Assembly (NCBI GenBank): GCA_903861125.1
Contig: CAIOTF010000023.1
Coordinates: 248,001 to 312,000 of the forward strand
Reading direction: 5' to 3'
Source: an uncultured Ignavibacteriota bacterium
GTDB lineage: Bacteria; Bacteroidota; Ignavibacteria; UBA10030; UBA8401
DNA: 64,000 nucleotides
In this document: positions 13,433 to 28,005 of the stretch, piece by piece
Layout: each line of letters begins with the position of its first letter
Numbering within the stretch: position 1 is the first letter of the stretch
The notes under the pieces: model-generated
The model's database searches: none
What the model was told of the DNA's origin: nothing
Seen by the model: the letters and a program-made list of their open reading frames with translations, nothing else
Translations under genes and position numbers: made by a program

Positions 13433-14227
13433 TTAGTTCGTTTTCATCGTGTTGTAATTCAGTTCTGTTCCCCACAGGCTGTGCGGAATTAAAAAGACAA
13501 GCAGTGTAACGATCGCCGCCGCAAGCACCCATCGTTTGGGATTGGCCGAACGCTGCACCGCAACCGAAGCAACAAGCCAAGCAAGAAAAGCGATGAGCGT
13601 CTTATTGTCCGTTATGTCGCTTCCGAACGGAAATCCTGTCCACCATTCGTTGAACGCAAAGTTTAAAACTAGCGGACCGAGAATCATACCCCCCAATGTT
13701 AAAACTCCGAATGTAGCATACGTTATCTTTTTAAATGAAGGCTCTTTTGCAAAAAACTCAAGTCCTGCGCGGGTCGATAACAGCATGCCGATAAACATCG
13801 CCGCAATATGGAATATCAGAACGGCTTTCGGTACTTCGCCGCGAAAACGGATCACGGTCGATGCGGAAAATGTTTGTTTACCATCCGATAGGAAGACCGT
13901 GTACTGAAGTTTTCCTGCCGGAGGCTGGTGGGGAAGCGGTGCCATAAGCACTCCATCGTTCATTGTCATAGGAACGGATGTTGGTGCTTCATTCGTATTA
14001 TACCGTTTCCATTCCACTCTTCCGGTAATGTTTGCATGGTTTGCGTTGACGGTAACGGGATGATCGCTTTCGCTGCCGTGCGACCGTTCCAGAACAACTT
14101 CAATTGCTTTCCCATCAAGCAGTGTAACATAATGTTTTGGATATGACGGACCGGTCATCCGCTGAAATACTGCCGAAGCAAGCGTAATGATTAAAGCAAG
14201 GGTCCAAAGATGATATGATCGTTTCAT
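13433..14227 (-). CDS. polytopic membrane protein with periplasmic beta-domain, unknown function
   Basis: The likely start is the ATG at 14227 (MKRSYHLWTLALIITLA...), giving 264 residues; an upstream in-frame start at 14284 would add a hydrophilic 19-residue leader. A first membrane helix (about 7-22) is followed by a soluble beta-rich domain (about 30-130) and then four hydrophobic helices (about 135-155, 170-190, 205-222 and 232-250). I do not recognise the family. It is convergent with the 600-residue gene and shares its terminator. Confidence 0.7.
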   Translation of the reverse strand: MKRSYHLWTLALIITLASAVFQRMTGPSYPKHYVTLLDGKAIEVVLERSHGSESDHPVTVNANHANITGRVEWKRYNTNEAPTSVPMTMNDGVLMAPLPHQPPAGKLQYTVFLSDGKQTFSASTVIRFRGEVPKAVLIFHIAAMFIGMLLSTRAGLEFFAKEPSFKKITYATFGVLTLGGMILGPLVLNFAFNEWWTGFPFGSDITDNKTLIAFLAWLVASVAVQRSANPKRWVLAAAIVTLLVFLIPHSLWGTELNYNTMKTN

Positions 14228-24256: not shown

Positions 24257-26785
24257 ATGTCTACTAAAGAATTCTTTGTTCAGGAATACGAAAACATCTT
24301 TCGTTTTCACCGCGCTGGTGCGGGAGGACTGGAAGTATCGTCAGAGCTTTCGCAATTGGTCGATGTAACGATCGAAAAACTTTGGCATGAACTTCCCGAA
24401 ACATCAAGAGATTCGTTCGCCGTTGTTGCGCTCGGCGGATACGGGCGGTACGAAATGGCACCACACTCCGATGTTGACGTCATGGTCCTGTTTGAACATG
24501 AAGATGCCAAGAAAGCGAACTCGGAAACGGCACAGAAGTTTCTGCATTCAATGTGGAATCTCGGCTTCGATGTCGGCCATAGTGTCCGGACGATCAAAGA
24601 TTGTTTGAATCTCTATCAAACCGATGTCGATGTGTGGGCTTCCGTGCTGGAGAGCAGATACGTGTGTGGCAATCAGGAAGTGATGAATACATACACCAGG
24701 GCCTTCCTGGCAACGATTCAAAAAAAACAGGATCTGAAATTCATCACCTCGGTCATTGCGGGAGTTGATGAACGGCACAGGAAGTATGAACATTCCGTGA
24801 AACTTCTCGAACCGAATCTGAAGAACAGCGCAGGGGGAATTCGCGACCTTCACTCGCTGGTCTGGATCTATCGTTCTACCGATACAAAATACTTTACGCG
24901 CGCACCGTTCCACACCAATGGCTCCGGATGTCTTCTGCTGTTTGAGCAGTTCACTGCGGACGGCATCATCACGCACGAAGAAAAGACAGAATACACGAGG
25001 GCCTTCGACGGAATCCTACGCCTCCGGAACGAACTGCATTACCATTCCAACGCTCAACAGGACATTCTGGAATTCTCAAAACAACTCGAAATAGCCCGAT
25101 CGCTTGGCTACCGTTTGACAACACCGGTAGAATCCGTTGAACAATGCATGCGGGAGTATTATCTCTTTGCGAGAACGGTGTACGGTCTTAATAAACGGCT
25201 GATCAATCATTTTCGCTCCAATGCATCGACCACTTTATGGTCAAAAATGCGCGACCAGAACATTGATGGAACATTTACCGTAAAGAATGAACAGCTCTTT
25301 TTACGCAGTGATATAAAAGAGCCTCTTACTCTTGCACAGATCGTCACAGCATTTTTTTTATGCAGTGAGCATGAGGTCATCCTCAGTTCGTCGCTGCAGT
25401 CGGCATTCAATGCGTATTTCCGGACACAGCCGATGTCGCAAACGGACGTGAAACCGGTTGCTCAGGCGTTGCTGAATATTCTGCGTTCGCCGGCAAATGT
25501 TGCTTCAACGCTGCAGATGATGAACGACGCCGACGTGCTCGGCAAGATCATTCCTGAGTGGGGCGATCTGGTGGCATTCTTTCAGCACAGCATGTACCAT
25601 TATTACACGACCGATGCGCACACACTTATCGCTCTGGAACACGCAGAAAAATTATTTGAAAGCAAAAGCATCCTTGGCGAAACTTTCCGGCATCTTCCGA
25701 AACGCGAGATCTTCTACTGTGCAATCCTCTTTCATGATATTGCAAAGCCGCTCGGTATCGCCGAACATGAGATCCGCGGCGTTGAAGTGTGGAAAAAAGT
25801 CCGTGACCGATTTGGTTTTACCGATGAATATGACGACGTCTCATTTCTTATCCGCCATCATCTAATCATGGAGCAGGTAGCTTTCCGTCGCAACACGAAC
25901 GATGCGGCGACGATTGACGAGTTCGCGAAGATCTTCTCGCGTCCCGAACAGCTCGATATGCTTTTCCTTCTGACGTATTGCGACCTATCGGCCGTGAACA
26001 AGAATGTCTGGTCCAGCTGGAAGGAGACGCTATTGCAGGAACTGTATGTGCGAACGCGACGGCGATTAACGGAACGGGAATCCGCGCAGACCGATGAGGA
26101 ATTTTCAACACCATATAACGACAGCGATCTTGCTCTGTTTAAACGGTCGATAGAGAATCTCGATGTTGTTTCATTCATTATCACCGATGATACTTCGAAT
26201 AATAAGATCACGATCATTACTCGCGACGCACCGTACCTTCTTTCAACGCTCTGCGGTGTACTCTCCGCCAATGATGTCAGTATTATAGATGCGACGATCT
26301 ACACACAAAAGGACGGGATTGTAATTGATACGTTCCGCGTAGTCAATGCCGCTACAAAACTTCCGTTAACAAAAGAACAGGAAACATCCATCCGGAACGA
26401 TCTGTACAATGTGCTGACAAAAAATGAATCACTGGAACGGCTGTTCGAACGGCATCACCGGCGATGGAAGCGCCGCGCGAAACCGCTCTTTCATCCTTCC
26501 ATCCGCGTGGATGCGGAATTTCATGATGCCAATAAACATACGATCATCGATGTCTATGCACCGGATATGACCGGCTTCCTTTTCAAGATTACAAAAACAC
26601 TCTCGGGCGCCGGCCTTCAGATTGATTTTGCCAAACTTGCTACGCGGGGGGATGGTATCGTCGACTCGTTCTATGTGAAGAATGAGGAAGGAAAACCGAT
26701 TTCTTCTAAAGAGCAGAAACTGTATCTTCGTGAGAAGATTCTTCACACAATCCACCAATTAATGAATGTTCAACTTGAGACATAG
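24257..26785 (+). CDS. glnD: PII uridylyltransferase / uridylyl-removing enzyme
   Basis: An 842-residue GlnD with the full domain order. A nucleotidyltransferase domain has GGYGRYEMAPHSDVDVMVLF (about 60-79). Then come the GlnD helical region (KNSAGGIRDLHSLVWIYR), an HD domain with FHDIAKPLG (about 491-499) and IRHHLIMEQVAF, and two C-terminal ACT domains (about 640-710 and 758-840). It senses glutamine and adds or removes UMP on PII. No glnB, amtB or glnA is in the window. The stop codon TAG overlaps the left inverted repeat of the GxxExxY unit, which may therefore have set or replaced the gene's end. Confidence 0.92.
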   Translation: MSTKEFFVQEYENIFRFHRAGAGGLEVSSELSQLVDVTIEKLWHELPETSRDSFAVVALGGYGRYEMAPHSDVDVMVLFEHEDAKKANSETAQKFLHSMWNLGFDVGHSVRTIKDCLNLYQTDVDVWASVLESRYVCGNQEVMNTYTRAFLATIQKKQDLKFITSVIAGVDERHRKYEHSVKLLEPNLKNSAGGIRDLHSLVWIYRSTDTKYFTRAPFHTNGSGCLLLFEQFTADGIITHEEKTEYTRAFDGILRLRNELHYHSNAQQDILEFSKQLEIARSLGYRLTTPVESVEQCMREYYLFARTVYGLNKRLINHFRSNASTTLWSKMRDQNIDGTFTVKNEQLFLRSDIKEPLTLAQIVTAFFLCSEHEVILSSSLQSAFNAYFRTQPMSQTDVKPVAQALLNILRSPANVASTLQMMNDADVLGKIIPEWGDLVAFFQHSMYHYYTTDAHTLIALEHAEKLFESKSILGETFRHLPKREIFYCAILFHDIAKPLGIAEHEIRGVEVWKKVRDRFGFTDEYDDVSFLIRHHLIMEQVAFRRNTNDAATIDEFAKIFSRPEQLDMLFLLTYCDLSAVNKNVWSSWKETLLQELYVRTRRRLTERESAQTDEEFSTPYNDSDLALFKRSIENLDVVSFIITDDTSNNKITIITRDAPYLLSTLCGVLSANDVSIIDATIYTQKDGIVIDTFRVVNAATKLPLTKEQETSIRNDLYNVLTKNESLERLFERHHRRWKRRAKPLFHPSIRVDAEFHDANKHTIIDVYAPDMTGFLFKITKTLSGAGLQIDFAKLATRGDGIVDSFYVKNEEGKPISSKEQKLYLREKILHTIHQLMNVQLET

Positions 26786-27183
26786 CCACAGAGGGCACAG
26801 AGAATTACATGGATGCTCTTACCGATAAAATCACCGGATCGGCGATAGAGGTACATACCATACTTGGATGCGGCCTTTTAGAATCCATTTACGAAGAAGC
26901 ATTGTGTGTTGAACTTGAGCGCCAGGTTTCTGTTGATGTTATTTATAAAGGAACTACGATTAAAGGTCAGCGTTTAGATCTTTTGGTAGAAAAACAAGTA
27001 ATCGTTGAATTAAAATCAGTATCATTGCTCCCCGCAGTAGCGCTTGCGCAGGTATTATCATATTTAAAAGCAACAGGGCTAAAGCGAGCATTACTATTAA
27101 ACTTTGGGGAAAAAAGAATGGTTGACGGCATTCGCAGAATATCAAATTAATTATTCGTTTTTTCCTCTGTGTTCTCTGTGGCT
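26784..27183 (+). mobile_element. inverted-repeat-bounded GxxExxY unit (possible small mobile element)
   Basis: A 20-bp repeat at 26784-26803 (AGCCACAGAG then GGCACAGAGA) is matched in inverse orientation by 27164-27183 (CCTCTGTGTT then CTCTGTGGCT), 17 of 20 positions complementary. The roughly 400-bp interval contains only the GxxExxY gene and separates glnD and murI with almost no other spacer: 10 bp remain before murI. The layout suggests an inserted cassette. No transposase is present, so movement would need help in trans. That the unit moves is inference. Confidence 0.5.
26809..27150 (+). CDS. GxxExxY protein (PD-(D/E)XK-like)
   Basis: This 113-residue protein carries the family name motif in GCGLLESIYEEAL (about 21-33) and a nuclease-like core GQRLDLLVEKQVIVELKSV, in which Asp and the ExK pair could form a PD-(D/E)XK site. 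Family members are usually somewhat longer: between CVELE and RQVSVDV about seven residues expected from family memory are missing, an apparent in-frame deletion. The function of the family is unknown. No clear ribosome-binding site precedes the ATG. It is flanked on both sides by an inverted CACAGAG-type repeat. Confidence 0.8.
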   Translation: MDALTDKITGSAIEVHTILGCGLLESIYEEALCVELERQVSVDVIYKGTTIKGQRLDLLVEKQVIVELKSVSLLPAVALAQVLSYLKATGLKRALLLNFGEKRMVDGIRRISN

Positions 27184-27192
27184 TAAAAGCAT

Positions 27193-28005
27193 ATGGCAAC
27201 TAAACATCAAAAACCGATCGGCGTTTTCGATTCCGGCATAGGCGGACTTACCGTCGTCCGCGCGTTATTGGAAAAACTGCCGAATGAAAATATTGTGTAC
27301 TTCGGCGATACTGCGCGAGTACCGTACGGATCAAAATCCGCACAAGTGGTCCGCGAATACACGCAGGACGATACCGATTTCCTTCTATCCAAAGATGTAA
27401 AGATGATCGTTGTTGCATGCAACACTGTTTCTGCCGTAGCGCTGGATGTAGTGCAGAAGAAAGCAAATCTTCCGGTCACCGGCGTTATTATTCCCGGAGC
27501 AGAAGCAGCCATCCATTCCACAAAAAACAGCCGCATCGGCGTCATCGGAACAACCGGAACAGTAAACAGCAATGCATACCGGAACGAATTAAAAAGATTG
27601 AGTCAATCGGCAACCGTATTCAGCAAAGCATGTCCGCTGTTCGTGCCGTTGGTGGAGGAAGGATGGATGGATTATAAAGCAACAGAACTGATCGCGAGTG
27701 AATATCTCTTCCCTTTGACTACAGAAAAAATCGATACCCTGATCCTGGGCTGTACCCACTATCCTTTATTAAAGAAAGTAATTGCCAGGGTAACCAAAGG
27801 AATGGTGACATTGATCGATTCCGGCGAAGCAACAGCGGCAACGGTCGGATCCATGCTGGACGAGCATGATCTGCGCAATAGAAGCAGCGAACAGCCAAAT
27901 GTTCAGTTCTTCGTCAGCGATGCACCGGAAAAATTTACATCGGTCGGCGAGATTTTTTTAGGGAAGAAACTCGGTGTTGTCCGGCGTGTTACCATCGGGA
28001 AATAA
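27193..28005 (+). CDS. murI: glutamate racemase
   Basis: This 270-residue enzyme makes D-glutamate for peptidoglycan. It begins with IGVFDSGIGGLTVVRAL, contains YFGDTARVPYGSKS, and has both catalytic cysteines, in VVACNTVSA (about residue 75) and LGCTHYPLL (about residue 187). Length and order are standard. Its start lies only 10 bp after the right repeat of the GxxExxY unit, so its promoter may lie within that unit or upstream in glnD. Confidence 0.95.
   Translation: MATKHQKPIGVFDSGIGGLTVVRALLEKLPNENIVYFGDTARVPYGSKSAQVVREYTQDDTDFLLSKDVKMIVVACNTVSAVALDVVQKKANLPVTGVIIPGAEAAIHSTKNSRIGVIGTTGTVNSNAYRNELKRLSQSATVFSKACPLFVPLVEEGWMDYKATELIASEYLFPLTTEKIDTLILGCTHYPLLKKVIARVTKGMVTLIDSGEATAATVGSMLDEHDLRNRSSEQPNVQFFVSDAPEKFTSVGEIFLGKKLGVVRRVTIGK

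Follow-up and report, generated by a model that had tools for sequence, protein, structure and literature searches.

A candidate minimal mobile system of GxxExxY nuclease genes and periodic inverted repeats, examined from a glnD–murI spacer of an uncultured Ignavibacteriota bacterium

The system of REP doublets forming hairpins (REPINs) and REP-associated tyrosine transposases (RAYTs), also called the REPtron, consists of a Y1/HUH transposase, TnpA-REP, and dispersed doublets of repetitive extragenic palindromes (REPs) (PMC3116915, PMC8266576). Another small selfish element, the intervening sequence (IVS) of 23S rRNA, is ~430 nt long and carries one small open reading frame (ORF) of the S23/four-helix-bundle type (PMC4990558). 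Here, we have analyzed a 64-kb stretch of DNA from an uncultured Ignavibacteriota bacterium (the window, by which the whole stretch is meant), where a gene of the GxxExxY family is located between two inverted copies of a short periodic repeat, called arms below, in the spacer of glnD and murI. GxxExxY is a named family with no assigned function, is spread over many phyla and occurs in several copies per genome; the reading proposed here would give it a concrete job. Namely, we consider it fairly probable that GxxExxY and the repeats constitute a two-part mobile system of a nuclease plus its repeats, which is similar to REPIN–RAYT with an unrelated enzyme and unrelated repeats. The features of the locus are as follows.

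26784..26803, forward strand: left arm, an AG-type repeat of two units, (AG)CCACAGAG GG CACAGAG A, overlapping the glnD stop codon
26809..27150, forward strand: GxxExxY / PDDEXK_3 gene of 113 aa, from profile matches, alignments and an AlphaFold model
27164..27183, reverse strand: right arm, matching the left arm in inverted orientation, 9 nt upstream of murI
24257..26785, forward strand: glnD, the left neighbour, outside the element, from a profile match
27193..28005, forward strand: murI (glutamate racemase), the right neighbour, outside the element, from a profile match

The arm of this element is composed of two 9-nt repeat units, CCACAGAGGG CACAGAGA. The left arm, AGCCACAGAGGGCACAGAG (26784-26802), and the right arm, CTCTGTGTTCTCTGTGGCT (27165-27183), are complementary at 17 of 19 positions, or at 17 of 20 when extended by one base, which is the count of the original prediction, and are 362 nt apart. 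With 18 nt of the left arm as a query, two sites only were found in the window within 3 mismatches, with 0 expected, and two such sites were reached in none of 100 dinucleotide shuffles. The original prediction, made from the window alone, had described inverted repeats enclosing one small GxxExxY ORF and touching the glnD stop codon and the start region of murI. Indeed, a single ORF lies between the arms, the left arm begins within the TAG stop codon of glnD (26783-26785), and the right arm stops 9 nt short of the ATG of murI (27193). The enclosed ORF scored 112.7 bits with TIGR04256 (cut-off 35) and 113.4 bits with PF13366 (cut-off 22), and its only Pfam match at E ≤ 0.001 was PDDEXK_3.

The arms are a property of the family rather than of this one locus. 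GxxExxY loci were drawn from relatives, from 80 named genome contigs, and from the phylum by a query taken from the AT branch described below. Among 160 distinct loci with usable flanks, 118 had an inverted match between their own flanks with a score of at least 14, compared with 37/160 for the direct orientation, 119/1600 for mismatched flank pairs and 3/800 for shuffles. For this count, duplicates were removed and 5 of 165 loci were omitted for short flanks; a first run omitted 5 of 112, and five loci present twice under two names (e.g., L020 = L078) were counted in that run and in the count of the two-unit motif. The latter motif pointed inward at both flanks of 35/76 and 14/32 GxxExxY loci versus 1/1030 of the other ORFs there, and AG units were present within 250 nt of 110/811 other ORFs of GxxExxY loci and at both flanks of 10/811. 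Judged by record titles, most of which denote metagenome bins, the 80 named loci span 17 phylum-level groups, which include Acidobacteria, Planctomycetes, Verrucomicrobia, Lentisphaerales, Cyanobacteria, Chloroflexota, Nitrospirae, Omnitrophota, Hydrogenedentota, Elusimicrobiota, Proteobacteria, Bacteroidetes, and the archaeon Methanothrix. Arms reaching the threshold were found at one or more loci in 14 of the 17 groups, the archaeon among them, and at none of the sampled loci of Lentisphaerales, Elusimicrobiota and Desulfobacterales among these 80. The gene is present in 41 of 60 relatives, with 0 to 12 copies per relative, and broken copies occur as well. Plasmids and viruses appear to be carriers of minor importance; a match was present in 8 of 72,556 plasmid records, and narrow patterns on viral contigs gave 0/20 and 5/15 candidate stretches.

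Moreover, the spelling of the arm follows the branch of the protein. Beside the “GPGLLES” proteins, the unit reads [AG]CN[AG]AG (CACAGAG, CACGGAG, CGCAGAG, CACAAAG, CACGAAG; the AG type), and beside the “GNGFLEKVYE” branch it reads [AG]CN[AG]AT (AATAGAACACGGATNACACGGAT..; the AT type). Among 158 distinct proteins (170 minus identical ones and those of <90 aa), AG units predominate at 113, AT units at 31, and neither kind at 14. The AG and AT groups require 8 and 10 changes on the protein tree, numbers as low in 0/500 shuffles; the AG/AT label itself changes 4 times over 144 rows, a count with no shuffle of its own. The clade letters used for the branches are one residue and hence rough, as L229 and L237 combine AT units with the letter L, and L042 and L257 combine AG units with F. 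Both kinds of unit occur in six genomes (G000, which is the window genome, G001, G003, G005, G028, and G030), and the spelling therefore tracks the gene and not the genome. Because the arms are mostly non-coding and yet keep their spelling even between proteins that have diverged to about 45-60% identity, the persistence points to upkeep via recognition or constant copying, and the covariation supports the idea that the nuclease would recognize its arms.

The repeats are also found with no gene between them. A three-unit pattern gave 336 matches in the 60 relatives, compared with 11 when read backwards, with the maximum of 111 in G044, and 332 of them fall in the 41 gene-holding genomes; in terms of genomes, 30/41 having the gene contain matches versus 3/19 not having it (Fisher p 5e-5). 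The link between the repeats and GxxExxY holds when the number of four-helix-bundle genes is controlled (partial 0.53) and also given Y1 transposases (partial rho 0.47), whereas the repeats hardly correlate with Y1 given GxxExxY (0.10). Only 6/150 of the matches listed are near a listed gene, the gene list being incomplete. Among 212 matches listed for six genomes, neighbours within 250 bp of each other are inward in 44 cases, outward in 0 and on the same strand in 5. A typical doublet reads (G/A)CCAC..GTGG(C/T), and five doublets folded as single-stranded DNA gave z of -2.85 to -7.73. In 23 stretches of G044, nonetheless, 20 pairings were accompanied by 23 unpaired arms, so that many arms stand singly. 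A one-base-spacer pattern was present in 31 of 40 named gene-holding genomes, most abundantly in Verrucomicrobia G349 (273 versus 16 backwards). For both patterns, the backwards control is not independent in the case of long arrays (in G372, it gives 60 versus 74). Three doublets of the CCGCAAAG type in G017 (L253, L254, and L255) share ~30 extra bases on each side, and some gene-less units are therefore longer composites.

The window genome itself holds three GxxExxY genes. The copy on contig C42 is flanked by the three-unit arms CACCACGGAGAACACAGAGGACACGGAGA and CTCCGTGATCTCCGTGCACTCCGTGGTG, and the copy on C9 by arrays of the CACGGAT type, a different spelling, which reach the contig end; solo repeats with no GxxExxY gene stand at 13648-13751 and 169770 of C42. 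The repeats, which the original prediction had proposed to look for elsewhere in this genome, are thus present there. Also, we noticed four near-tandem solo repeats of TTTGCACCGC(A/T)GAG.. or similar on C42 (~13520-13830; L016 720-1035), with no GxxExxY gene between them, and tandem blocks of ~100 bp with CACGGA-type inverted units by the third GxxExxY gene at the C9 end (L015 1230-1548).

We then compared the glnD–murI site among relatives by reading 30 murI loci with strands set, 24 of which have glnD upstream. The full element was found in the window genome and in G001, where the gene is interrupted by a stop; the left arm alone was found at the same position in G002 and in G004 (murI 96% identical); G003 and G017 have inverted pairs that enclose no gene and are spelled differently; and the spacer was armless in the other 18 of 24 loci, including those of the same-genus G005 (16 nt) and G007 (66 nt). 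The arrangement is hence complete in just 2 of 24 loci, the own genome included, and is not conserved throughout the relatives, which, like the presence of the repeats elsewhere in the genome, speaks in favour of the original prediction. The insertion is thus limited to part of the genus with the gene lost in some species, and the window copy is an old insertion common to that part. The pairs in G003 (L052) and G017 (L061), of the CACAAAG and CACGAAG types, lie in the spacer where congeners have the CCACAGAG element, as if this spacer were a reused spot. The window protein is without 7 residues after residue 36 that aligned relatives possess and may therefore be in decay, even though its structural model is still good.

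Evidence of movement comes from two elements, L228 in G003 and L235 in G005, which are 86.7% identical over 517 nt and have unrelated flanks. Empty sites were sought with the joined flanks as a query; no element is present at the L235 site of G003, G000, G004, G006, G010, G013, and G015, nor at the L228 site of G005, G001, G002, G004, and G006, as judged by coordinates and for most of them, not G005, also by alignments. The two elements are accordingly reciprocally present and absent in two species of one genus. As for target duplication, which the original prediction had recommended looking for, none could be established. The 114 inward pairs examined show no excess of direct repeats of 2-4 bases in their flanks at the offsets tried; at 5-6 bases, z exceeded 2.5 in a few instances, which derive from 1-2 pairs. 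The empty sites are too diverged and align too loosely for end points. A possible TTA duplication is seen at glnD–murI in G001. The window copy is an old insertion and not a fresh one.

The protein is predicted to be a nuclease. In 50 sequences including the window protein, G22, E25, Y28, D57, and K69 are invariant, E67 is conserved at ≥90%, and H16, G20, Q81, and Y85 complete the set of invariant or almost invariant residues. The window protein retains the catalytic-type D57, E67-x-K69, Q81, and Y85, and this set, D..ExK..QxxxY, represents the motifs of RecB/Cas4-type nucleases. AlphaFold gave a predicted local distance difference test score of 89.3 for the window protein and 95.5 for an intact relative, L106; the best solved match of the latter model is Cas4 SSO0001 (4ic1, Z 9.5), with Hjc (1gef) at Z 7.1. 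Further matches at Z ~6-7 are a mixture of Hjc, AddAB, restriction enzymes, other nucleases and also Rep15, a likeness at the level of fold only, and a sequence search of solved structures gave nothing at E ≤ 0.1. The models thus indicate that GxxExxY has a PD-(D/E)XK nuclease fold like those of Cas4, RecB, and Hjc. The ratio of nonsynonymous to synonymous substitution rates (omega) was 0.04-0.17 in 13 of 19 related gene pairs, the synonymous rate being saturated in the other 6; therefore, the gene appears to be under purifying selection and retained for its product.

Two other gene families of the same genomes were examined for comparison. At four-helix-bundle genes (TIGR02436), an inverted flank match with a score of ≥14 was found in 10/30 loci versus 4/300 mismatched pairs, and the arms are spelled differently (GTGAATGGTGAATAG, AGGGTTTAGGG, and TTAGCAATTAGC). 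When two loci mis-centred on another ORF (L199 and L205) were omitted, AG units were found at either flank in 3/28 and at both flanks in 0/28. At six loci (L195, L208, L210, L212, L216, and L217), S23-like four-helix-bundle genes are located outside rRNA between short-period inverted repeats with their own spelling, a layout parallel to that of GxxExxY. As for Y1 transposases of the RAYT type, an AG or AT unit was nearby in 3/20 loci, and classic palindromes were present at ≥5/20. Two Y1 genes of G030 (C33:217770-218940 and C33:223092-224361) were each found <1 kb from a GxxExxY gene.

Based on these results, a full element would be a single nuclease gene enclosed by a pair of inverted arms, ~450 bp in all, and the gene-less form would be an inward doublet of the same arms, roughly 60-200 bp long and capable of forming a hairpin. 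The PD-(D/E)XK nuclease would read the type of repeat unit that goes with it and nick or cut at the arms, which are probably folded as a hairpin or cruciform in replication, and repair or strand transfer would then copy the unit into new intergenic sites. The gene would be retained by purifying selection and often inherited in place, with only occasional jumps. The binding and cutting of the arms are inferred, as is the assignment of DNA movement to GxxExxY rather than to another enzyme. The original prediction had made GxxExxY a candidate for either the driver of a minimal mobile unit or its cargo. The unit as such is supported throughout the family, because arms are present at most members, gene-less doublets exist, the arm type goes by branch, genes and repeats co-occur, and sites are reciprocally empty; as to the alternative, covariation and purifying selection favour the driver over the cargo. 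More broadly, we lean slightly towards regarding GxxExxY proteins as the enzymes of an as yet undescribed class of minimal mobile DNA, in which a Cas4/Hjc-like nuclease of 115-140 aa is combined with short periodic arms of its own, an AG/AT protein-to-repeat code and gene-less hairpin doublets, and which would be, together with the four-helix-bundle genes, one of several independent systems of “one small gene between periodic arms.”

Several observations weigh against this proposal. Inverted matches at the threshold are lacking in 42 of the 160 loci, and 37 have a direct match; the three-unit pattern is absent in 11 of the 41 gene-holding relatives, and the one-base-spacer pattern has no match in 9 of the 40 named gene-holding genomes. 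Many same-genus copies occupy orthologous sites, so that movement would be slow, and reciprocity was shown for a single pair of sites. No target duplication of ≥4 bp was seen, the ends being blurred by a common TTnA flank. At the protein level, Foldseek gave no match at E ≤ 0.001 (best E 0.0059), and the tree test by independent pairs had only 2 pairs and fell short of significance. Also, block inheritance of gene and arms alone would give covariation, which leaves the long-term maintenance of spelling as the sole argument for recognition. Finally, a Y1 (HUH) transposase is present in all the 41 gene-holding relatives as well, and a second enzyme may act besides GxxExxY.

This last point is the basis of a rather unlikely alternative, in which the mobility of the repeats is due to another enzyme, e.g., a Y1/HUH transposase of the RAYT type, and GxxExxY is a passenger caught between two copies. 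The two Y1 genes in G030 lying close to GxxExxY genes and the occurrence of inverted doublets with no gene are what such a passenger would lead one to expect, but the AG/AT units are rare near Y1 genes, at least five of 20 having classic palindromes instead, and any match was found in just 1 of 7 relatives having Y1 and no GxxExxY. The partial correlations likewise place the repeats with GxxExxY and not with Y1, and a passenger leaves unexplained both the arm type by protein branch and omega near 0.05-0.1. A strict RAYT/REP system was ruled out, as the ORF is PDDEXK_3 only and several Y1 loci have their own palindromes. It is also unlikely that the arms are selected, immobile sites bound by a nuclease resident in the host, with a role in autoregulation, in repair or in the upkeep of chromosomes at cruciforms. 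Purifying selection, the frequent occupation of orthologous sites in different species and the Hjc-like, Cas4-like fold would all suit a host function, yet near-identical elements are reciprocally present and absent, the spread is patchy (41/60 relatives with 0 to 12 copies), and dozens of gene-less doublets as well as broken copies exist.

A solo Cas4-like nuclease in patchy, multi-copy, single-gene loci might furthermore be an anti-phage or addiction nuclease travelling on small repeat-bounded cassettes. We regard this as improbable; neither PADLOC nor PHROGs gave a match for the window protein, L106 had only a weak Cas4 match in PADLOC (E 0.0057) and a likewise weak Cas4-like one in PHROGs, and the window locus has no partner gene. 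A known defence system is hence unsupported by PADLOC. Inverted arms at both ends of a gene could in principle arise by coincidence or represent an ordinary terminator or RNA stem around the ORF, which is scarcely credible when 0/100 window shuffles and 3/800 shuffled flanks are set against 118/160 real ones, when the arms are 362 nt apart, and when like spelling recurs in many phyla. Chance pairing was accordingly ruled out by the two sets of shuffles, and an ordinary terminator by the distance between the arms. The 23S rRNA IVS was also rejected as an identity of this element, which lies between glnD and murI and encodes a PDDEXK_3 protein.

In the literature, the GxxExxY family is named in a paper on the genome of an algal virus and in one on a classifier of reverse transcriptases, and PF13366 is also mentioned in print. 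The top results of searches on REP, REPIN, RAYT, PDDEXK, and intervening sequences, with subscription papers and preprints outside their scope, contained no link between this family and repeats; a survey of REP exists (PMC12306157). PDDEXK_3 and TIGR04256 were not found in the literature searched, and six spellings of the repeat were found there only in unrelated work. The pattern seen across the family is strong and, within the reach of these searches, undescribed, while its novelty is unproven. The proposed system would account for the conspicuous CCACRGAG-type repeat scattered in environmental genomes, and the tie between branch and spelling makes recognition directly testable.

The GxxExxY elements share features with several known systems. 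Insertion sequences paired with miniature inverted-repeat transposable elements have terminal inverted repeats and gene-bearing as well as gene-less forms, as in the GxxExxY system; unlike those, the GxxExxY ORF has no known transposase domain, there is no clear target duplication, and the arms are periodic and variable. A free-standing PD-(D/E)XK homing endonuclease gene is also a single nuclease gene able to spread by cutting and repair, and to our knowledge such genes have no dispersed gene-less repeat doublets. The fold and the conserved D..ExK..QxxxY residues are shared with Cas4/RecB nucleases, whereas GxxExxY proteins are only ~115-140 aa long and lack the four conserved Fe-S cysteines of Cas4 (in 50 sequences, only a single cysteine column reaches 90% conservation). 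Horizontal gain followed by vertical retention and ORF decay recalls the 23S rRNA IVS, but the latter sits in rRNA, is removed by RNase III and encodes a helix bundle (PMC4990558), and the four-helix-bundle genes in the present genomes have other repeats than GxxExxY.

The closest parallel is REPIN–RAYT, in which a small nuclease gene stands beside its own repeats, gene-less inward doublets capable of forming hairpins are dispersed, gene presence tracks repeat abundance, enzyme groups co-vary with repeat types, and the gene behaves rather as a housekeeping gene (PMC3116915, PMC8266576); all these features have their counterparts in GxxExxY. In contrast, the GxxExxY enzyme is of the PD-(D/E)XK and not the HUH type, with no Y1 transposase domain (PF01797) in the ORF; its arms are tandem units of 8-9 nt and not, as judged by eye, a palindrome of 20-50 nt with a GTAG-type tag; and its gene is located inside the inverted pair and has itself moved. 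The same genomes contain both systems, and in the sampled loci the two have separate repeats. By analogy, therefore, the GxxExxY system would work like REPIN–RAYT while departing from it in enzyme class and repeat structure, and, if this is true, the lifestyle in which a small enzyme maintains hairpin repeats as a population had a separate origin here, based on a Cas4/RecB/Hjc-class nuclease.

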